Translations under genes and position numbers: made by a program | Notes under the pieces: model-generated | The model's input: the letters and a program-made list of their open reading frames with translations, nothing else | Databases searched by the model: none | What the model was told of the DNA's origin: nothing | NCBI GenBank assembly: GCA_016933475.1 | Contig: JAFGAW010000261.1 | Location: 1-33,461, forward strand | Length of the DNA: 33,461 nucleotides | Direction: 5' to 3' | Source: Thermoleophilia bacterium | GTDB taxonomy: Bacteria > Actinomycetota > Thermoleophilia > UBA2241 | Part shown: positions 8,567 to 24,276 of the stretch, in pieces | Layout: the number at the start of each line of letters is the position of its first letter | Position numbering within the stretch: the first letter of the stretch is position 1

Positions 8567-9775
8567 TCAGGCCGTCCTGATCTGGGTCCAGGCCTCCTGG
8601 TACATCGGCGCGAACTCGCCCAGGTCGAGGAAGGGCTCCGAGCGCGCCAGCTCCTCGTCGGTCGACCGCACGGCGAGCGCGAACTCGTCGGTGTACTCCT
8701 CCGACCCGTCGACCGGCGAGGCGCACCAGATCCAGCTCGCGTTCTTGCCCGAGACCTCGGGGCGCGTCACGTAGTCGATGAAGAGGTGGGCGCCGTACCG
8801 CTTCTCGGCGCTGGTCGGGACACACATGTTGTCCGTCCAGCGCATGAAGCCCTCTTCGGGCAGCACGTAGTCGACCGTCTCCCACGCCTCGTCGTCGCCG
8901 CCCATCGTGTCGATCGCCAGGAGGGCGTCGAAGTCCCAGCACATCACGAACGGGATGCCCTGGACGATCGAACGCTTCCTGTTGAGCGAGTCGTAGGCGG
9001 CGACGATCGGCTTCTGCTGGATCAGCTTGTCGGTCGCCTGGTCCAGCTCGGCCTGGTCGGTCGTGTTGCCCGAGAAGCCCAGGGACTTGAGCGACGCGCC
9101 CAGGCACTCGCGCTCGTCGTCGAGCATGATGATCTTGCCGTTGTTGGCCGGGTCGAAGAGCGTGTCCCACCGCGTGTACGTGCCGGGCGCCTTGTCGATA
9201 CGCACCGCGTAGCCCGTCGTGCCGTAGAAGTACGGCACGCTGTACTTCATGCCATCGTTGTCGGCCGGATCGTCGTACGCGGGCGCCCGGAACTCCGCAT
9301 TGATGAACTCGAAGCTCGGGATGTAAGAGAGGTCGAGCGGCTGCAGCAGCTCGCTCTTGATCAGGATCGAGACCATGTAATCGGACGGGATGATGACGTC
9401 CCACCCCGACGCCCCGGCCCGGAGCTTCGCGAGCAACTCCTCGTTGTTCGCGAAGTAGGTCTCGTTGGCCTTGATCCCGGTCTCCTTGCGGAAGTCCTTG
9501 CGCACGTCCGGATCCATGTAGTCGGTCCAGTTGTAGACCGTGATCTCGTCCGGTTTGGTCTCGTCCATCGGCGGCATCTCGACCGCCTGCGCACCGCCGC
9601 CCTCTTCCTCGCTCTCGCCGCAGGCCCCCGCCAGGGCCCCGACGGCGCCGGCCGAGAGACCGAGGATCAGCGCCCGCTCGACGAACTGGCGGCGCGTGAT
9701 GCCTCCCCGCCTGGCCTCCCTGCAGAGACCGACGAGCTCCTTCTCATGCTGCCTGAGACTATCCCTGTCGTTCAC
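8567..9775 (-). CDS. PotD-like substrate-binding lipoprotein
   Basis: A 402-residue periplasmic-type binding protein of the spermidine/putrescine (PotD/PotF) family. The N-terminus combines a twin-arginine motif (TRRQFVERAL, R28-R29) with a lipobox (LAGAC, Cys52), so it is probably exported by Tat and lipidated. Family signatures include ITVYNWTDYMDPDVRKDF, YDVIIPSDYMV-like GWDVIIPSDYMV, the hinge KYSVPYFYGTTGYAV, WDTLFDPANNGKIIMLDD and the C-terminal WTDNMCVPTSAEK. It lies 60 bp downstream of mtbB on the same strand, with no permease or ATPase gene beside it. Context suggests uptake of a methylated amine, betaine or polyamine for the methyltransferases upstream; that link is inference. Confidence 0.88.
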   Translation of the reverse strand: MNDRDSLRQHEKELVGLCREARRGGITRRQFVERALILGLSAGAVGALAGACGESEEEGGGAQAVEMPPMDETKPDEITVYNWTDYMDPDVRKDFRKETGIKANETYFANNEELLAKLRAGASGWDVIIPSDYMVSILIKSELLQPLDLSYIPSFEFINAEFRAPAYDDPADNDGMKYSVPYFYGTTGYAVRIDKAPGTYTRWDTLFDPANNGKIIMLDDERECLGASLKSLGFSGNTTDQAELDQATDKLIQQKPIVAAYDSLNRKRSIVQGIPFVMCWDFDALLAIDTMGGDDEAWETVDYVLPEEGFMRWTDNMCVPTSAEKRYGAHLFIDYVTRPEVSGKNASWIWCASPVDGSEEYTDEFALAVRSTDEELARSEPFLDLGEFAPMYQEAWTQIRTA

Positions 9776-9835: not shown

Positions 9836-11236
9836 TCACCCGAGACTCGCGCCGTGGTGCCGTCGCTCGTCGAGCAGGCGCACCGCGGGGATCTCAAGGC
9901 CGAGCACCTCCGCGATGTTGGCCTTGGCCTCGATCGCCGTCGGTTCGTCGGGGTGGCTGATCTCGAAGGTGGTCAGCCGCCCCAGCCCGAGCTCGCCGCG
10001 ACGCTCGTTCATGAGCACCGGGTCGGAGAGCTCGGAGGGGTCCACCCCGAGCCGCTCGGCCACGTAGGCCTTCGCCTCCACCAACCGCATCCCGCGAGCC
10101 ATCTGCATGCGGGCGACCAGATCTCCGGCCGCCCTCATCCCGCCGAGGCCCGAGGCGCAGGCGTGCGCGATCGGCATGGCGAACATGTCGCCGGAGCCGA
10201 CCTACAAGCCGTCGAGGCGCAGGATGTCGACGCAGGCGCGCGAGGCGCGCGAGACGGCGTCGACCGGGTTGTAGGTGGTCATCGGCACGCCGCCCACGCC
10301 CATCCCGACGTTCATGTGGATCGGGATCGTCGCCTCGTCGACGCAGGGCTTCACGACGGTGCAGGCCCGGGCGACGTTCCAGGCCGCGGTCTTGCCGGTG
10401 TTCACGTTGACGGCCGGCCCGAACATGTGGGCGCCGGCCTTGGTCGCCAGGCGAAGCTGCTCGCGCGGCCAGAGGCCGGCGAGACGCACGCCGTCGTACT
10501 CGAGCTCGCCGTGCATGCCGAGCACGAACTCGCCGGCCATGCCGATCTCGATCCCGAACCCGGGGTAGCGGGCGCGCAACGCCTCGGCCGCCCGCAGCGT
10601 GGCGAGGAAGTCGCCGTCGCCGGCGGCGCCGGCGGTGTCGAAGTCGATGCCGTCGGCGCCGGACTCAGCGAGCTCGACGCCGACGTTGACCATGTCGGTG
10701 ACGGCGAACTCGATCGCCTCCTCCTGGCCGGCGCGGGCCTCGTCGAACCTGCCCAGGGGCAGCAGCTCGGCCCAGTTCGGCGCCGGCCCGTCCGGCCGGC
10801 AGTAGAGCCCGAGGTTAGGCATCGCCCCGTACTGCACCGGCACGGTCAGGGCGAGCTGGGCGTCGCGCATCGACTGCGCCTCGTAGGCGGTGATCGTCTT
10901 CACGGCCTTGAAGGAGTAGTCGTTGTGGCACAACTCGACGAGGTCGGCGGCGAAGCACTGCTCGTACATCTGCAGGTCCTGGAGGCGCGAGGCGAAGGTC
11001 TTGGCGCCCGAGCCGTCGTAGCTCAGCACGACCTCGGCGCCGATGTCGACGCCGGTGAAACGCGCCGGCGACGCGTAGATGTCGACCAGGTGCTCGATCT
11101 CGTCCTCGGCCAACGGCGGCACCTTGGCCCGCTTGACCGCCGCCTCGACCCCGGCGCGAACGTCGGCCTCGATCTCGCCGGGCGTCAGATGGACGAGTGA
11201 GCCGTCCCCCATGCGTGTGGGCACTCTGTAGGGCAA
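9836..11236 (-). CDS. mtbB: Dimethylamine methyltransferase with in-frame amber (Pyl)
   Basis: Corrinoid-dependent methyltransferase MtbB, which moves a methyl group from dimethylamine to a cognate corrinoid protein. The frame is interrupted once, by TAG at 10202-10204 (residue 345), and then continues with VGSGDMFAMPIAHACASG, GMRAAGDLVARMQMARGMR and VDPSELSDPVLM, which are the MtbB C-terminal landmarks. Upstream parts also match: ELCHNDYSFKAVK, QYGAMPNLGLYCRPDGP, GADGIDFDTAGAAGDGD, GMAGEFVLGMHGELEYDGV, MGVGGVPMTTYNPVDAVSRAS. Read through, it has 466 residues, against 467 that I recall for Methanosarcina MtbB. I chose the TTG at 11236: it lies 7 bp after GGGAGG and gives a 12-residue start up to RMGDG, as in the archaeal protein; GTG at 11245 is the alternative. 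It lies 83 bp after mttB. An automatic caller would split it into 10202-11245 and 9836-10186. Confidence 0.93.
10202..10204 (-). other. Amber codon at the pyrrolysine position of mtbB
   Basis: On the minus strand the codons read GGC TTG TAG GTC. In archaeal MtbB the pyrrolysine follows the same VDGI/LDGL turn. The ten bases GGCTTGTAGG are identical to those around the amber of mttB. Confidence 0.9.
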
Positions 11237-11319
11237 ACCGACCACCTCCCGCCGCGGCTTGGGCGCGGCCTCTCAGTAGCGTCCTTGCAGACCGCAGGAC
11301 CGTGCGACGACGACGTGCT

Positions 11320-12795
11320 TCAGCGACCCCGGGCGGCGGCGTCGCGGTCGGCCCCGTCGACGATCGCGCGGATCTCGGCGAGCACGTCGTCGGGGATCGG
11401 CTCCGGCACGTGCTCGTCGAGCAGGCGCCGCGCCTCCGCCGTCGAGCGTGCGTGGAGGTCCGAGCCCCCGGCAGCCGTCCAGTCCTCCCGGACACGGCGG
11501 TCGATGAGCTTGGGCTGCGACTGCGAGCGCATGAACTTGAGCGTCGAGTCAAGGCTGAGGAAGTCGCCGAAGGGCCCGACCTCCCTGATGTCGTCCACAC
11601 CGAGGAGCTCGTCGGTGACCGGCACGCCGCCCACGGCGTGCCGCACCATACGGGCGAACTCGTTGTCCATGACCATCTGTCCGAAGTCCAACGCCACACC
11701 CGACTCGATCATCCCCGCGCCGTAGATGAGGTTGGCTCCTGCCAACGCCGGCAGCAGCGCGGTGAGGGTCTTCTCGTGGCCGGTCTGGGCGTCGAAGACC
11801 TTGGAGTCGCCCTACAAGCCGGCCACGTAGCTGGGCAGAGAGTAGCGGCGCGCCAGGTAGGCGGCGGCGGCGCTGATGACGCCGCACTCGGGGGAGCCCA
11901 CCGAGGCCGCCGCGAGGCGCAGGTCCATGGCGGTCGTCGAGCTCCCGTAGAGCACCGGCGCCCCGACCTGGGTGAGCTGCGAGAGGGTGATGCCGGCGAG
12001 CACCTCGGCGTTGTGGACCACGAGCGTGCCGGCCAGGCCGACCGGGGCGGAGCCCCCGGCCATCGCCATCGAGAGGATGTTGCAGGGCATGCCGGCGCGG
12101 GCCGAGGCGACGATCACCTCGGAGCAGTCCCGGGGGAGCTTCAGGGGGCTCACCGGGCAGACGCCGGGCATGATGATCGGCCGCCGGCGGAGCTCGTCCC
12201 GCCCCCCGACCACGGCCGCCGCCATGTCCAGCATGACCTCGGTCTCCCACTTGGAGAGGGGGCCGGCGCAGATGTTCTTCGAGGTGTTGCAGAGCGCCGC
12301 TTCGTAGCTGTGGATCGTCGCCGTCTCAGGGGGCACGTCCTTGGCGCCGACGGCGATCTCGTACGCGTCGAGCTCGCCGAGCGCGTCGGCGAGGCGCGCC
12401 GTGTCGCCGACATCCTGCTTGGTCGGCGCCCGCCACTCCCCCGTCTCGCGATCGGCGATGACGATGCCCTCGCCGAACGTCGTGAACCCCACGCGCCCGG
12501 GATCGAGCATGATGTCGTCCTTGGGGTGGCGGCCGGCGGCGAAGACCCGCTCGGGCGCCGAGGCGATCGCGGCCTCGACCAGGTGCGGCGGGATCCTGAC
12601 GACGCCGGTCTTGCGGTCGACCGTGGCGCCCCCGCCGTCGAAGATGTCCATCGCCTCCGGGTCGTCGGTGAAGACCCCCGTGTACTCCAGGACCTCGAGC
12701 GTGGCGAGGTGGATGTCCCTGAACTCGTCCTCGCCGAAGACGTTGAGGCTGAAGCCGCCGCTGCGCACGCGGCCGGCATGGTCACGTCGCTTCAT
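11320..12795 (-). CDS. mttB: Trimethylamine methyltransferase with in-frame amber (Pyl)
   Basis: Corrinoid-dependent methyltransferase MttB, which demethylates trimethylamine. The frame is interrupted once, by TAG at 11812-11814 (residue 328), right after YSLPSYVAGL. It continues with GDSKVFDAQTGHEKT, LLPALAGANLIYGAGMIESG, MVMDNEFARMV, LIDRRVREDWTAAGGSDL and IRAIVDGAD, all matching the end of archaeal MttB. Upstream landmarks are VFGEDEFRDIHLATLEVLEYTGVF, FGEGIVIADRETGEWR, DVPPETATIHSYEAALCNTSKNI, PRDCSEVIVASARAGMPCNILSM and YGSSTTAMDLRLAAASVGSPE. The whole product is 491 residues, close to the archaeal length. Most bacterial MttB-superfamily members (MtgB type) lack Pyl, so the amber is diagnostic. 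ATG 12795 follows a GGAGGCGGG ribosome site. It is first in the mttB-mtbB-binding protein operon, behind the promoter at 12875-12902. Confidence 0.94.
11812..11814 (-). other. Amber codon at the pyrrolysine position of mttB
   Basis: Minus-strand codons read GGC TTG TAG GGC, following SYVAGL. Pyrrolysine of archaeal MttB lies at the same place, before the SDSK/GDSK motif. The flanking decamer GGCTTGTAGG is shared with mtbB. Confidence 0.9.
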
Positions 12796-12874
12796 CGTCC
12801 CGCCTCCCCCCAGAGACACTTGTGCCGCTTCGCTGGACGTAGAGGCGAAGCCGGCCGACACGATTGGCTGTACG

Positions 12875-12902
12875 TATATATCAACGCTTGAGCCGAGGTC
12901 AA
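12875..12902 (-). promoter_or_regulatory. Sigma70-type promoter of the mttB operon
   Basis: On the minus strand, TTGACC (12897-12902) and TATATA (12875-12880) are 16 bp apart; TATACG two bases further is an alternative -10. This is the only AT-rich patch in the 130-bp region between divergent mttB and the TetR gene. The direct repeat TCAACG (12881-12886 and 12899-12904, 18 bp apart) overlaps the promoter and is a candidate site for the neighbouring TetR protein. Confidence 0.7.
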
Positions 12903-12925: not shown

Positions 12926-13621
12926 ATGGTTGATCCCCGACCCGAGATGGATGCCGCCGCAGGTCTCGCGACGCGCCCACGGCGCTCCCCCAATCCCGTC
13001 GCCAACAGAGACAAGCTCATCGAGGCGACGATCCGGTGCATCGCGACCTACGGCCCGGCGGGGGCCACCGTAGAGAGGATCACCGACCTGGCCGGGCTGT
13101 CTCGCGGCCTCGTACGTCACCACTTCGGCAGCAAACAGAGGCTGCTCTTCGAGGCCTTCGCACGACTCGCGGATGAGATGCGGGCGGCCTTCGCCAGTGC
13201 GGACCCGGCGGAGGAGCCGGACCCGGTCGGGGCGTTGCGCACCGCCATCGCCAACGAACTCGAGCAGACCGTCGCTTCTCCCCAGAGAGCTCGCGCCTGG
13301 TTCGGGTTCTGGCTCGCGGCGATGAGCGACGCCGACCTCCGCGAGGCCAACGAGCGGCTTTACACCGAGGAACGCGAGCGCTTCAGCGAGCTGTTCCGCG
13401 TCGCGGCGCAGCAGCAGGGGCTGGAGATCGACCACACAGAGGCCGGGATCGGGCTGGTCGCCCTGGTCGACGGCGCCTGGAACGAACTGCTCATGGAGGG
13501 CGCCCGGTTCGGGCTCGACAACGCGTATGCGCTGTGCGACCACTACATCGACATGGTCCTGCGGCAGGGCCGCGACGGCCGCGGCGGCTCGGTCGAGGGC
13601 GCATGCCCGCCGGCCGACTGA
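12926..13621 (+). CDS. TetR-family regulator, BetI-like
   Basis: A 231-residue repressor-type protein. The N-terminal helix-turn-helix spans about residues 24-70 (RDKLIEATIRCIATYGPAGATVERITDLAGLSRGLVRHHFGSKQRLLFEAF). The C-terminal half resembles the BetI ligand domain (RARAWFGFWLAAMSDADLREANERLYTEERERF, then GLVALVDGAWNELLMEG). BetI proteins respond to choline or betaine-type quaternary amines, which suits a gene divergent from mttB by 130 bp. I infer that it controls the methylamine operon and itself. ATG 12926 is preceded by a weak G-rich ribosome site; ATG 12947 is an alternative. It ends one base before the vapC remnant on the other strand. Confidence 0.85.
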   Translation: MVDPRPEMDAAAGLATRPRRSPNPVANRDKLIEATIRCIATYGPAGATVERITDLAGLSRGLVRHHFGSKQRLLFEAFARLADEMRAAFASADPAEEPDPVGALRTAIANELEQTVASPQRARAWFGFWLAAMSDADLREANERLYTEERERFSELFRVAAQQQGLEIDHTEAGIGLVALVDGAWNELLMEGARFGLDNAYALCDHYIDMVLRQGRDGRGGSVEGACPPAD

Positions 13622-15303: not shown

Positions 15304-15615
15304 ATGTACGTCCTGAGCCTATGGCAGACCGTCCCGGACTACGCCGAGTGGAAGAAGCTCTTCGACAGCGACCCGCTCGGGCGGGAGAGGTCCGGCGTAC
15401 GCCGCTACACCATCACGCGGCCCGTCGACGACGAGCACACGGTGATCGGCGCGCTCGCGTTCGACAGCCTCGAGGAGGCCGAGGCCTTCGCCGCGCGCCT
15501 GCGCGAGATGTGGGAGGGCCCCGGCAGCGCGCTGGTGGCCGACGCGGGCCTGCGCATCAGCGAGGTCATCGAGGAGAAGACGATCGGCCGCGAGGCGGAG
15601 CGGAAGGCGGCCTGA
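15304..15615 (+). CDS. 103-residue ABM-like small protein, copy 1
   Basis: A small soluble protein beginning MYVLSLWQTVPDYAEWKKLFDSDPLGRE, with the core RPVDDEHTVIGALAFDSLEEAEAFAARLREMW. The strand-helix order and W/D residues resemble the dimeric alpha-beta barrel (ABM-like) superfamily, but no catalytic residue identifies a reaction. About four-fifths of residues are identical to the protein at 23965-24276. The ATG follows GAGAGG. The CsoR-like site upstream suggests induction by copper or reactive sulfur, which is inference. Its last codons form the first unit of a 22-bp tandem repeat. Confidence 0.8.
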   Translation: MYVLSLWQTVPDYAEWKKLFDSDPLGRERSGVRRYTITRPVDDEHTVIGALAFDSLEEAEAFAARLREMWEGPGSALVADAGLRISEVIEEKTIGREAERKAA

Positions 15616-18826: not shown

Positions 18827-20128
18827 TCACGTCAGTCTCGAGAGCAGCACGCCCTCGCCGTCGAACGCCAGCGGCTCCGGCTCGGGCGCGACGACCAGGT
18901 CCGCCTCGGGGTGCAGCCGTGCGAGACACCCCGTAGACACCTCGAGGCGCTCCATCGCCAGGGTGTTGCGGATGTGCACCAGGCGCAGGTCGTCGAGCGT
19001 GTAGGGACGCAGGGTCGCGAGCGCGGCGGCGAGCGCCTGACGGTCGCTCGCGAAGGTGAGGGGGAGCTTGCCGTCCTCGGGAGCGCAGGAGGCGAGCGCG
19101 TTGGTGGCCGAGGCGGCGAGGTCGATCGCCTCAGTGAGCCGCAGGGGCGCCATGTCGACGGAGCCCAGCCCGCAGGCGTTGCCCTCCGTGGCCTCGGTCA
19201 GCGCCCGGACCACGATGCGCGTGACCCGCGGGGACTCGCGCGGCTCGGTCCAGACGCCGGTGGAGCGGCCGGTCACGTTGGGGTCCATGCCGGCTCCGCT
19301 CACGTCCTTGCCCATCTCGTCGACGAGCAGGACGTCGATGTCGTCGAGCGGCAGCCGCGGCAGGAGCGTGCGCGCGTACTCGAGCAACTCGGGCTCCTCA
19401 GTCTCCCAGTGCGGCGCCGGGAGAACGCGGACCGCGCAGGCACGGTGCCGCTGGTTCTCGACCAGGGCGATGCCGAGGATGACGGGCACGCGCTCGAGGA
19501 GCGCGCGCCCCGCGGTCGTGACCACGTCGGCAAGCCCGCGCTCGAGGGCGTGGCGGTGGCACGCCGTGGCGCCGGGCTCGTTGCCGAGGCCGATCACGAG
19601 CATCTTGGTGAGCCCGCTCTCGACCCGGCCGACGAAGTCCGTGTGGGGCTTCACGCGGTTGACGAGCACGATGCCGTCGGCCGCGGCAGCCTCCCTGTCG
19701 AGGAAGAGCGGCAGTCCCCCGGCCTCGCCGAGCGAGACGACCTCGACCGAGGCGCGGACGGGGGCGCCGACGGACTCCTCGGTGATGCCGCGCTCGGCCA
19801 GCACCGCCGCCTGCCCGGCGGCGGTGGCGTTGCCGTGCGAGCCCATCGCCGAGACGATGTACGGGCGGCAGCCCGCGTCGCGCAGCCGCGCGACGACGGC
19901 CCGCACGACCTCGGGCAGGCCGTCGATGCCGCGGCTGCCGACCCCGATGGCGACGGAGGCGCCGGGCGGCAGGGCCACACCGCCCCAGGCGGGGCTCCAC
20001 TGCCGCCCGACCTCGGCCGCCGCGTCGACCGGCGGTGGCGCCGCAAAGCGCTGCTCGACGAGGTGCATCGCCGGCAGCGGCAGCGCCTCCCAGCCGTCCG
20101 GCGGCTCGCAGAGCTCGATGACGGTCAT
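18827..20128 (-). CDS. LarA-like nickel-pincer isomerase family protein
   Basis: A 433-residue protein of the LarA/DUF2088 family. Recognisable parts are GVGSRGIDGLPEVVRAVV, the GSHGNAT loop (ligand-binding histidine), NRVKPHTDFVGRVESGLTKMLVIGLGN, and DVLLVDEMGKDVSGAGMDPNVTGR. LarA racemises lactate with a nickel-pincer nucleotide; many homologues act on other 2-hydroxyacids, so the substrate is open. Its place just before lutABC suggests that it converts the enantiomer or epimer not used by Lut. No larB, larC or larE cofactor genes are in the window. ATG 20128 follows GGGAGG. The aminotransferase gene ends 25 bp upstream. Confidence 0.8.
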   Translation of the reverse strand: MTVIELCEPPDGWEALPLPAMHLVEQRFAAPPPVDAAAEVGRQWSPAWGGVALPPGASVAIGVGSRGIDGLPEVVRAVVARLRDAGCRPYIVSAMGSHGNATAAGQAAVLAERGITEESVGAPVRASVEVVSLGEAGGLPLFLDREAAAADGIVLVNRVKPHTDFVGRVESGLTKMLVIGLGNEPGATACHRHALERGLADVVTTAGRALLERVPVILGIALVENQRHRACAVRVLPAPHWETEEPELLEYARTLLPRLPLDDIDVLLVDEMGKDVSGAGMDPNVTGRSTGVWTEPRESPRVTRIVVRALTEATEGNACGLGSVDMAPLRLTEAIDLAASATNALASCAPEDGKLPLTFASDRQALAAALATLRPYTLDDLRLVHIRNTLAMERLEVSTGCLARLHPEADLVVAPEPEPLAFDGEGVLLSRLT

Positions 20129-20153
20129 ACGGCCTCCCGCCCGGCAACGCGAC

Positions 20154-21305
20154 TCATGCCGTCTCCGCAGCAAGCGCCTCGAGAAAGCGCCGGTTCTGTT
20201 CGGGCGTGCCGACGGTGACCCGCATGCAGGTCGGCAACCCCCAGCCCGACGCAGGCCGCACGATGACGCCGCGATGCAGGAGCCGCTCGAAGAGCGCATC
20301 CGCGTTCTGCTTCACGTCGACGAAGACGAAGTTGGTCTGGCTGGGCACAGGGTCGAAGCCCAGGCGCGCGAGCTCCGCGACGAGGAGCTCGCGCCCCCGC
20401 CGGTTCTCCTCCACGCAGCGCTCGCGCCAGTCTGTGTCGGCCAGCGCGACAGGCCCGGCCGCCACCGAGAGCCGGTTCAGGTTGAAGGGCTCCTTGATGG
20501 TGTCGAGAAGCTGCCGCACGGCCGGCGCGGCGATGCCGTACCCGAGGCGCAGCCCGGCCAGACCATACGCCTTGGAGAAGGTGCGCAGCACGATCACGTT
20601 GTCGTGGCCGGCCTTGAAGTACTCGAGCCCGTCGGGGTACTCGGGGGCATCGGCGAACTCGAAGTAGGCCTGGTCGAAGACGACGGCCACCGTCGGCGGC
20701 ACCGCCGCGAGAAAGGCCGCGACCTCGTCGCGGCGGACGATCGTGCCCGTCGGGTTGTTCGGGTTGCACAGCCAGACGACACGCGTGCGCGGGGTCACCG
20801 CGGCCGCCATCGCCTCGAGGTCGTGGCGCAGGTCGCTGAGCGGAACGCGCACGACGCGGGCGCCCATGAGCTTGCTCGCCTCTTCGTAGCGGCCGAAGGT
20901 CACGTCGGCCACGACGACCTCGTCGCCGGGGCTCACGTAGAGCTGCGGGATGAGCTGGATGAGCGCCTCGGTCCCGTGGCCGACGAAGACGCTCTCCGCG
21001 GCCACTCCGTTGGCCTCGGCCAGGGCGCCCTTCAGATCGAAGAAGCTCTTCTCGGGGTACGTCGCGAGCTTGGGCAGGGTGGCCGCGATCGCCTCGAGCA
21101 CGCGCGGCGACGGCCCCAGCGGGTTCTCGTTGGACGACAGCTTGACGATGTCGCTGAGGCCGAGCTCCCGCTGCACCTCCTCGACCGTCATGCCGGCGAC
21201 GTACTCGACGAGCGTCAGCGCCTCGGGCCGGCAGCAGGAGGTCACGTCGTGCGGCGTCGCGTCGTGCGGCGTGCCTTCGTGCGGCGTCGCGCCTCCAGGC
21301 CTCAC
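20154..21305 (-). CDS. HisC-like class I/II aminotransferase
   Basis: A PLP aminotransferase of the histidinol-phosphate aminotransferase group, 383 residues from GTG 21305. Key segments are VKLSSNENPLGPSP, GHGTEALIQLI, WLCNPNNPTGTIV, VFDQAYFEFA and the PLP lysine in RTFSKAYGLAGLRLGYG, then SQTNFVFVD and MRVTVGTPEQNRRFLEAL. The GTG overlaps the lrp stop (GTGA), so translation is coupled; GTG 21245 is an alternative and would remove a repeated TPHD/ATPHD segment. It is embedded in an lrp-larA-lut cluster with no other his gene. It may therefore deaminate an aromatic or other amino acid to the keto acid rather than make histidine; this is inference. Confidence 0.85.
   Translation of the reverse strand: MRPGGATPHEGTPHDATPHDVTSCCRPEALTLVEYVAGMTVEEVQRELGLSDIVKLSSNENPLGPSPRVLEAIAATLPKLATYPEKSFFDLKGALAEANGVAAESVFVGHGTEALIQLIPQLYVSPGDEVVVADVTFGRYEEASKLMGARVVRVPLSDLRHDLEAMAAAVTPRTRVVWLCNPNNPTGTIVRRDEVAAFLAAVPPTVAVVFDQAYFEFADAPEYPDGLEYFKAGHDNVIVLRTFSKAYGLAGLRLGYGIAAPAVRQLLDTIKEPFNLNRLSVAAGPVALADTDWRERCVEENRRGRELLVAELARLGFDPVPSQTNFVFVDVKQNADALFERLLHRGVIVRPASGWGLPTCMRVTVGTPEQNRRFLEALAAETA
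21246..21290. repeat. 15-bp degenerate tandem repeat
   Basis: Three near-identical 15-bp units encode the aminotransferase N-terminal EGTPHD-ATPHD segment on the minus strand. It lies in the short stretch between the lrp stop and the first conserved aminotransferase residues. It makes the exact start codon uncertain. Confidence 0.6.
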
Positions 21306-22026: not shown

Positions 22027-22121
22027 GCCGGCGAAGCGCCGTCGGCCTCCGTAAGGGTGCCAACAGCTCGCTGAGGGAGCCGGCACGTCAGTCGATCGTG
22101 AGGGGGGAAGGAGGATGGGTG

Positions 22122-23765
22122 ATGACCATTGACGACCGCGGCTCTCCGCGCCGGATCGTGCGGGCGGAGGGCTTCGAGGCGTGGCGGTTCACGCGCCGCG
22201 ACCTGCTCAAGGGAGCGGCCGCCATCGGCGGCGCGGCTGCCTTCGGCGTCCCGATCCTCGCCGGCTGCGGTGAAGACTCCGAGACGGCGACGCCGAGCCC
22301 TGCGGCCGAGTCGCCGGTCAAGGGCGGCCACATCCGCTCCGGTGTCAGCGGCGGCAGTGCCAAGGACTCGCTCGACGCCCACACCGCCTACCTCACCGTG
22401 CCGCAGATCGGCATGCAGTGGCAGCTCTACGACTCGCTGCTCGGGTTCGACCCCGACCACAAGATGATCTACCTGCTGGCCGAGTCGTACGAGCCCAGCG
22501 CCGACGCCACCGAGCACGTCGTGCGGCTCAAGCCCGACCTCGTCTTCCACAACGGCAAGACAGTCACCGCCGACGATGTGGTCGCGAGCTACCTGCGGAT
22601 CCTCGACCCGAAGACGGGGGCCGCCGGCGTCGACCTGCTCAGCGACCTCAGCCCGAGCGGCATCAAGAAGCTCGACGATCTCACGGTGCAGTTCACGCTC
22701 GACCGCCCGAACGCCATCTTCTGGGAGTCCCTGGCCTTCTTCTGCAACGCGATCGTGCCCGAGGGCTACGACCCCAAGGTCGACACCGGCCTGATCGGCA
22801 CCGGGCCCTGGGTCATCGACTCCTACTACCCGGGCGACAAGGCGCACTTCACCGCCAACCCCGACTACTGGGGCGAGGGGCCGTACGCCGACGAGCTCAC
22901 GATGACCCAGTTCGCCGACTCGACGGCACGCCTCAACGCCCTGCTCGACGGCTCCGTCGACCACATCGAGCTCGTCGAGGCCGCGCAGACCGAGGTCATC
23001 AAGGGCAACGCCGACCTGACGCTCCTCGAGGCGAAGTCCGGCGGCTGGAAGCCCTTCACCATGCGCATCGACAAGAAGCCCTTCGACGACGTGCGCGTGC
23101 GACAGGCGATGCGCCTGATCGCCGACCGCCAGCAGATGATCGACCAGGCGCTGGCCGGCTACGCGTGGCTCGGCAACGACATGTACGCCCCGTACGACCC
23201 GGGCTACCCGAGCGACCTGCCGCAGCGCACGCAGGATCTCGAGCAGGCCAAGTCCCTGCTCAAGCAGGCGGGGTACGAGGGCCTCACCGTCGAGCTGACG
23301 ACGTCGTCCGCGGTCGGCTCGGGCATGGTCGAGGCCGCCCAGGTCTTCGCCGAGCAGGCCAAGGGCGCCGGCGTGACCATCGACGTCAACAACGTCGACG
23401 CCGGCATCTTCTACGGCGACGACTACCTGCAGTGGGACTTCGCGCAGGACTACTGGGCGACGCGCAACTACCTCGCCCAGACCAAGCTCTGCACCACCCC
23501 CGACGCGCCCTACAACGAGACCCACTGGCAGGACGACGAGTGGCAGGCGCTCATCGACGAGGCCTTCCTCACCTCCGACGAGGCGAAGCGCAACGAGCTC
23601 GTCCGAGCGGCCGAGACGATCGAGTACGAGCGCGGCGGCTTCATCGTCTGGCAGCACAACATCCTGCTCGACGCCTACAACAACAGGCTTGGCGGCGTGA
23701 TCCCCGACACGTGGGGGCAGTCCGCCTGCAAGAACCGCTACAACCTCATGTACTTCAGGTCGTAG
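22122..23765 (+). CDS. Family 5 solute-binding lipoprotein (DppA/OppA type)
   Basis: A 547-residue extracellular binding protein for an ABC importer of peptides, nickel or similar solutes. A Tat motif (FTRRDLLKG, R25-R26) and lipobox (LAGC, Cys49) predict a Tat-exported lipoprotein. Family landmarks are WQLYDSLLGFDPDHK, FHNGKTVTADDVVASYLRIL, GTGPWVIDSYYPGDKAHFTANPDYWG, FDDVRVRQAMRLIADRQQMID and the long C-terminal lobe. ATG 22122 lies 7 bp after AAGGAGG; an upstream GTG (22098) has no such site. There are no permease or ATPase genes beside it. Divergence from lrp suggests amino-acid or peptide uptake controlled by that regulator. The stop codon is TAG, followed by a 20-bp-stem terminator. Confidence 0.9.
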   Translation: MTIDDRGSPRRIVRAEGFEAWRFTRRDLLKGAAAIGGAAAFGVPILAGCGEDSETATPSPAAESPVKGGHIRSGVSGGSAKDSLDAHTAYLTVPQIGMQWQLYDSLLGFDPDHKMIYLLAESYEPSADATEHVVRLKPDLVFHNGKTVTADDVVASYLRILDPKTGAAGVDLLSDLSPSGIKKLDDLTVQFTLDRPNAIFWESLAFFCNAIVPEGYDPKVDTGLIGTGPWVIDSYYPGDKAHFTANPDYWGEGPYADELTMTQFADSTARLNALLDGSVDHIELVEAAQTEVIKGNADLTLLEAKSGGWKPFTMRIDKKPFDDVRVRQAMRLIADRQQMIDQALAGYAWLGNDMYAPYDPGYPSDLPQRTQDLEQAKSLLKQAGYEGLTVELTTSSAVGSGMVEAAQVFAEQAKGAGVTIDVNNVDAGIFYGDDYLQWDFAQDYWATRNYLAQTKLCTTPDAPYNETHWQDDEWQALIDEAFLTSDEAKRNELVRAAETIEYERGGFIVWQHNILLDAYNNRLGGVIPDTWGQSACKNRYNLMYFRS

Positions 23766-23964: not shown

Positions 23965-24276
23965 ATGTACGTCCTCAACTTCTGGCACACCGTCCCCGAC
24001 TACACGGAATGGAAGAAGGTCTTCGACAGCGACCCGCTGGGCCGCGAGGCCTCCGGCGTACGTCGTCACACCCTTACACGACCCGTCGACGACGAGCACA
24101 CGGTGATCGGCGCGCTGGCGTTCGACAGCCTGGGCGAGGCCGAAGCCTTCGCCATCCGGCTACGGGAAGTGTGGGAGGGCCTCGGCAGCGGGCTGGTGGC
24201 CGACGCCGGCTCGCGCATCAGCGAGGTCCTCGAGGAGAAGGTGTTCGATCGCGAAACGGAGCGGAAGGCCGCCTGA
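23965..24276 (+). CDS. 103-residue ABM-like small protein, copy 2
   Basis: Paralogue of the gene at 15304-15615, of identical length. It has MYVLNFWHTVPDYTEWKKVFDSDPLGRE, the invariant block RPVDDEHTVIGALAFDSL, and the same ending ERKAA. About 19 of 103 residues differ. The function is unknown; the fold is probably a dimeric alpha-beta barrel. The upstream operator and leader are conserved along with the coding region, so the whole expression unit was duplicated. A gagaggaa-type ribosome site precedes the ATG. Confidence 0.8.
   Translation: MYVLNFWHTVPDYTEWKKVFDSDPLGREASGVRRHTLTRPVDDEHTVIGALAFDSLGEAEAFAIRLREVWEGLGSGLVADAGSRISEVLEEKVFDRETERKAA

Follow-up and report, generated by a model that had tools for sequence, protein, structure and literature searches.

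The best-known users of pyrrolysine are methanogens, together with some Bacillota and Desulfobacterota, and the question raised by this locus is whether an actinobacterium also uses this residue, decoding in-frame amber codons in two adjacent methylamine methyltransferase genes. The window, by which we mean the whole stretch of 33,461 nucleotides that was analysed, lies in contig C248 of a 2.49-Mb MAG (hereafter G000) with an estimated completeness of 80% and contamination of 5%. An initial annotation had placed a pyrrolysine-type mttB beside mtbB at 11320-12795, and we found its coordinates, strand and context to be right. We consider it very probable that the window carries the mttB and mtbB of an uncultured, pyrrolysine-encoding Thermoleophilia-like actinobacterium, in which the UAG at 11812-11814 is decoded as pyrrolysine and the two enzymes would form a route from trimethylamine through dimethylamine to monomethylamine. 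The two genes and their amber codons are as follows.

11320 to 12795, minus strand: mttB, a 491-aa trimethylamine:corrinoid methyltransferase with a single in-frame amber (TIGR02369; Foldseek match 7xcl)
11812 to 11814, minus strand: TAG of mttB, predicted to be read as pyrrolysine, residue 328, equivalent to Pyl334 of M. barkeri MttB (aligned to the X of PDB 7xcl)
9836 to 11245, minus strand: mtbB, a 469-aa dimethylamine:corrinoid methyltransferase, likewise with a single in-frame amber (TIGR02368)
10202 to 10204, minus strand: TAG of mtbB, residue 348 (TAG in all 46 aligned MtbB)

The mttB frame runs from 12795 to 11320 with an ATG start, a TGA as its true end and a single internal TAG, and its read-through sequence is MKRRDHAGRVRSGGFSLN...SLPSYVAGL-TAG-GDSKVFDAQTGHEKTL..., with 163 conserved residues downstream of the TAG where about 160 had been claimed. 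When read through, the protein matches TIGR02369 (trimeth_pyl) at 684.3 bits, compared with a curated equivalog cut-off of 525 bits, and this one match spans residues 15-483, crosses the TAG and covers the entire profile (1-469 of 469). It also matches Pfam MTTB, and the neighbouring MtbB scores 450 bits with TIGR02368 (cut-off of 369 bits). In the alignment with PDB 7xcl, the TAG falls on the X that denotes pyrrolysine (YVAGL-TAG-GDSK versus YVAGS-X-SDAK), bearing out the proposal that the codon after SYVAGL lies at the MttB pyrrolysine site. To compare the protein with MttB and MtgB at the level of structure, we used a model built from 20 homologues (pLDDT 88.5), for which the best PDB match in Foldseek was M. 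barkeri MttB (7xcl, TM 0.94, 44% identity), followed by MtgB (2qne and 9yce, TM 0.90-0.92, 29-30% identity). Gly110, Met249 and Tyr364, which are active-site residues of M. barkeri MttB (PMC9842639), have equivalents in G108, M243 and Y358 of the window protein, and residue 109 is Glu rather than the Thr111 of M. barkeri, as it is in 41 of the 57 amber-bearing relatives. This gene is confirmed as a member of the MttB family with an amber codon at the pyrrolysine site, while the pocket residues known so far cannot separate trimethylamine from similar tertiary amines as the substrate.

An in-frame TAG can also be a sign of decay, and we therefore weighed the possibility that both genes are pseudogenes in which the ambers are nonsense mutations of a former pyrrolysine-free gene of the MtgB type. 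The use of TAG as an ordinary stop in this genome (described below) would fit such a history, as would the 80% completeness and 5% contamination of the MAG. Conservation of the codon speaks against it. In an alignment of 94 MttB-superfamily proteins, 57 with and 37 without an amber, TAG occupied the pyrrolysine column in all 57 amber-bearing relatives, while the amber-free homologues had A, S, H, L, V, T, C, G or F (mostly V/A/S/T/H/L) at this position. Among aligned MtbB, 46 of 46 had TAG at the column of the mtbB amber. In a tree of the superfamily the amber sequences form one cluster that takes in a single TAG-less gene. The window gene falls within this amber-bearing MttB clade, its sister being the gene at locus L016 of the Thermoleophilia MAG Loclat_bin-16816 (81% identity). 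The TAG at the pyrrolysine column and this placement set the window gene apart from the pyrrolysine-free MtgB-type homologues, a separation that the initial annotation had also drawn. Selection was also unchanged past the amber, as dN/dS between the window gene and that of L016 was 0.249 upstream of the TAG and 0.240 downstream, upholding the expectation of purifying selection beyond the codon. We looked for frame decay after the TAG among close relatives and saw none, and we looked for relatives with a sense codon at the site or a pyrrolysine-free placement; the close relatives keep the TAG, and the TAG-less gene (C191:759, discussed below) is not an ortholog of the window mttB. With the frame conserved and the pyl gene set complete, the pseudogene reading is rejected on the family-column TAG, the tree and the selection, and we regard its probability as negligible; the argument that two adjacent ambers, each at the family position, are very unlikely to be the product of decay has stood.

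Reading these codons as pyrrolysine requires a dedicated machinery, and the host MAG encodes the full set for pyrrolysine synthesis, charging and tRNA. PylS-C (311 bits) and PylS-N are both on contig C103, and PylB (440 bits), PylC (307 bits, cut-off of 248) and PylD (186 bits) were also identified in G000. A tRNA-Pyl with the anticodon CUA lies at the edge of a contig (C76:4-76); it is 73 nt long with a 5-nt D loop, an extended anticodon stem and a tRNA-Pyl-like cloverleaf, and its stems covary across seven genomes. ARAGORN found no tRNA-Pyl on the 3.7-kb PylS locus of G000, and in G001, a genome of the same genus, tRNA-Pyl, PylB, PylD, PylS-C and PylS-N are all on one contig. A neighbour of pylS in G000 matches TIGR02370, the model for corrinoid proteins of the pyl type, at 222 bits (cut-off of 215.3); this protein (L041:19296-19940, contig C103) and a class-III aminotransferase are located between pylSc and pylSn. 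G000 also encodes a RACo-type corrinoid activator (C272). G001, G008 and G009 have RACo-type activators with an in-frame TGA; this was considered as a selenocysteine codon and rejected, as it is the terminal stop. Within the host family, PylS was found in 14 of 15 genomes. The host class as a whole had it in 19 of 399 genomes, which belong to only two families, and it occurred in 2 of 397 genomes sampled across the phylum.

TAG is not reserved for pyrrolysine in this genome. In a crude gene call on eight regions of G000, it ended 28 of 98 called ORFs, a count that includes pyrrolysine codons and some spurious ORFs, and several genuine genes of the window end in TAG, such as that of a solute-binding protein at 22098-23765. 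As TAG doubles as an ordinary stop, pyrrolysine decoding in this host would be partial, regulated or context-dependent.

Another concern with any MAG is that a contig has been binned wrongly, and the window could in principle derive from a pyrrolysine user of the Desulfobacterales type that was placed in an actinobacterial bin. The nearest non-actinobacterial relatives of the gene are indeed from Desulfobacterales (58-59% identity), and the contamination estimate of 5% leaves room for a stray contig. Against this, the GC content of the window (70.8%) and its tetranucleotide profile match those of other G000 contigs and of same-genus genomes (r 0.85-0.93), with an r of about 0.91 to the pyl contigs of G000 and only 0.49 to a Desulfobacterota locus. 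Genomes of the same family and the Thermoleophilia locus L016 have copies of their own, and the tree places L016 as sister to the window gene. We rejected contamination on composition (tetranucleotide profile and GC) and consider it extremely improbable.

The genes around the pair bear on how it may be used and controlled, and three further features flank it.

8567 to 9775, minus strand: PotD/PotF-like extracellular solute-binding protein (PF13416 and PotD-like matches)
12926 to 13621, plus strand: TetR-family regulator with a BetI-type C-terminal domain, divergent from mttB (PF00440, PF13977)
12869 to 12878, no strand assigned: TGTACGTATA, in the gap between tetR and mttB, a candidate operator for TetR whose function is predicted

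On the shared strand, mtbB is 74 bp downstream of mttB and the PotD-like gene is 60 bp downstream of mtbB; mttB and mtbB are probably co-transcribed. PotD-like homologues also adjoin other mtbB-mttB pairs, at C54 of G000 and C83 of G001. The probable regulator of the mttB-mtbB pair is the divergent TetR/BetI-like protein, and a TetR with 63% identity occupies the equivalent position beside the mttB of L016. The 10-mer TGTACGTATA is present in a single copy in the window and occurred in 0 of 100 shuffles (chance expectation of 0.00), and it recurs in the matching tetR/mttB gap of L016 (L016:1055-1064), the shared form being TRTACGTATA. We looked in the window for an inverted repeat ahead of mttB and found none, and a motif search of the window for a corrinoid protein gene was also negative. 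Elsewhere in the window there are two similar small genes of about 103 aa each (15304-15615 and 23965-24276), the single one tested having no Pfam match, and a nickel-pincer-dependent isomerase at 18827-20299 (NPN_iso_grp_22, 459 bits, cut-off of 400) that adjoins Lut-like lactate-utilisation genes.

Gene identity, the position of the amber, selection and the decoding genes are established at the level of sequence, and together with the biochemistry of the family they allow a route to be proposed. PylBCD would synthesise pyrrolysine, the split PylSn/PylSc enzyme would load it onto tRNA-Pyl(CUA), and this tRNA would decode the UAG at 11812-11814. Trimethylamine would then add to the pyrrolysine imine, as in the family generally, which would position a methyl group for transfer to the Co(I) of a pyl-type corrinoid protein whose gene lies outside the window. 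The dimethylamine product would be demethylated by the neighbouring MtbB to monomethylamine. The methyl group presumably then passes to tetrahydrofolate, a final transfer that we infer because the 80% complete genome gave no strong match to a pterin-binding methyl acceptor, only a weak fragment at a contig edge. There was likewise no MtmB match in this 80% complete genome, and monomethylamine may therefore be the end product. MtmB homologues that lack an amber are present in other genomes of the set (L168-L176; G001, G003, G007-G011 and G014), and MtqB was characterised in 2026 from this non-pyrrolysine kind of MtmB homologue (PMC13044021). An amber-bearing MtmB was seen in G011 and G017 only.

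The window pair is not alone in its genome. G000 has 38 MttB-superfamily matches in total, and the genomes G000-G014 have from about 20 to 38 such matches per 2-4 Mb genome. Among those in G000, at least five are amber-bearing MttB that exceed the cut-off (on C191, C151, C54, C272 and in the window). Together with six full amber MtbB this gives a minimum of 11 complete mttB/mtbB genes with an amber, and one further amber MtbB is partial. The TAG-less member of the amber clade is one of these paralogues (C191:759, L117:759-2171). It scores 638 bits with TIGR02369, which is over the cut-off, an amber-bearing mttB follows about 250 bp downstream of it, and it has Val (GTC) at the pyrrolysine site and Phe in place of Tyr364. 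The long branch of this gene leaves its precise position in the tree uncertain, and we read the gene from its sequence as a natural loss of pyrrolysine. The Gly110 column, which was 100% conserved across 66 sequences in a previous study (PMC9842639), has Ser or Asp in some of the amber MttB paralogues (L119:5596-7053, L120:8518-9972, L126, L127, L128, L098 and others), and L101 keeps the amber and has Phe at Tyr364. The Ser or Asp at Gly110, the change of Tyr364 to Phe and the replacement of pyrrolysine by Val hint at divergence toward new substrates, and it is possible, though doubtful, that these Thermoleophilia-like actinobacteria have, as a family, built up a large set of pyrrolysine-dependent demethylases in which paralogues have come to act on new methylated amines.

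Given five amber paralogues, the substrate of the window copy itself could be another tertiary amine. The enzyme would then still be a pyrrolysine-containing member of the MttB superfamily, with a tertiary methylamine other than trimethylamine as its physiological substrate. The number of amber MttB and MtbB genes in this one genome is in keeping with such specialisation, as are the PotD-like binding protein in the cluster and the separate branch that the window gene and L016 form, with at most 67% identity to the other copies. However, the tested active-site residues of MttB are kept with the exception of Thr111, the score is far above the trimethylamine equivalog cut-off, and the pairing with mtbB suits the sequential use of trimethylamine and then dimethylamine. 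We therefore consider a different substrate unlikely and favour trimethylamine for the window MttB, and the reading of the initial annotation as a pyrrolysine-type MttB is supported.

MttB and MtbB that encode pyrrolysine have been noted in Actinobacteriota before, in a 2023 study of Stordalen Mire (PMC10805028) which states in one sentence, with PylS unmentioned, that some Actinobacteriota MAGs express pyrrolysine-encoding mttB and mtbB. The genus named for them is RBG-16-64-13 (PMC10805028), and these MAGs resemble our host in their phylum, in having both kinds of gene and in the recognition of these genes by their amber codons. We found no description of pyrrolysine in Thermoleophilia in the literature searched, which did not extend to subscription papers. 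Actinobacterial pyrrolysine MttB and MtbB are thus already known (PMC10805028), and the added interest here lies in the paralogue expansion; the full pyl gene set of the host lineage we did not find described in the literature searched. A whole actinobacterial family with about 70% GC would combine a complete code expansion and many pyrrolysine genes with a TAG that still ends ordinary genes, so that the question of amber ambiguity becomes testable in a new clade. With these genomes a high-GC phylum contributes further PylS/tRNA-Pyl pairs, and they point to a possible sink for trimethylamine and dimethylamine outside methanogens. Standard gene callers would split each amber gene in two.

Among characterised enzymes, M. 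barkeri MttB (7xcl/7xcm/7xcn; PMC9842639) is like the window protein in its fold (TM 0.94), in the pyrrolysine column and in the equivalents of Gly110, Met249 and Tyr364, while the window protein differs in its 44% identity, in having Glu109 for Thr111, in its bacterial host and in the lack of an adjoining mttC. The glycine betaine methyltransferase MtgB (2qne, 9yce) shares the superfamily and fold (TM 0.90-0.92), but it is only 29-30% identical, is without pyrrolysine and acts on a quaternary amine. The pyrrolysine MttB of Desulfobacterota (loci L017-L024; compare PMC8318568) are amber enzymes with the TAG at the same column and 48-59% identity, although from a different phylum than the window host. 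The closest counterpart is the MttB of L016, which is 81% identical and shares the position of the TAG codon, the order TetR-mttB-mtbB and the intergenic motif, while an extra TAG-less gene of the MttB superfamily stands between its mttB and mtbB.
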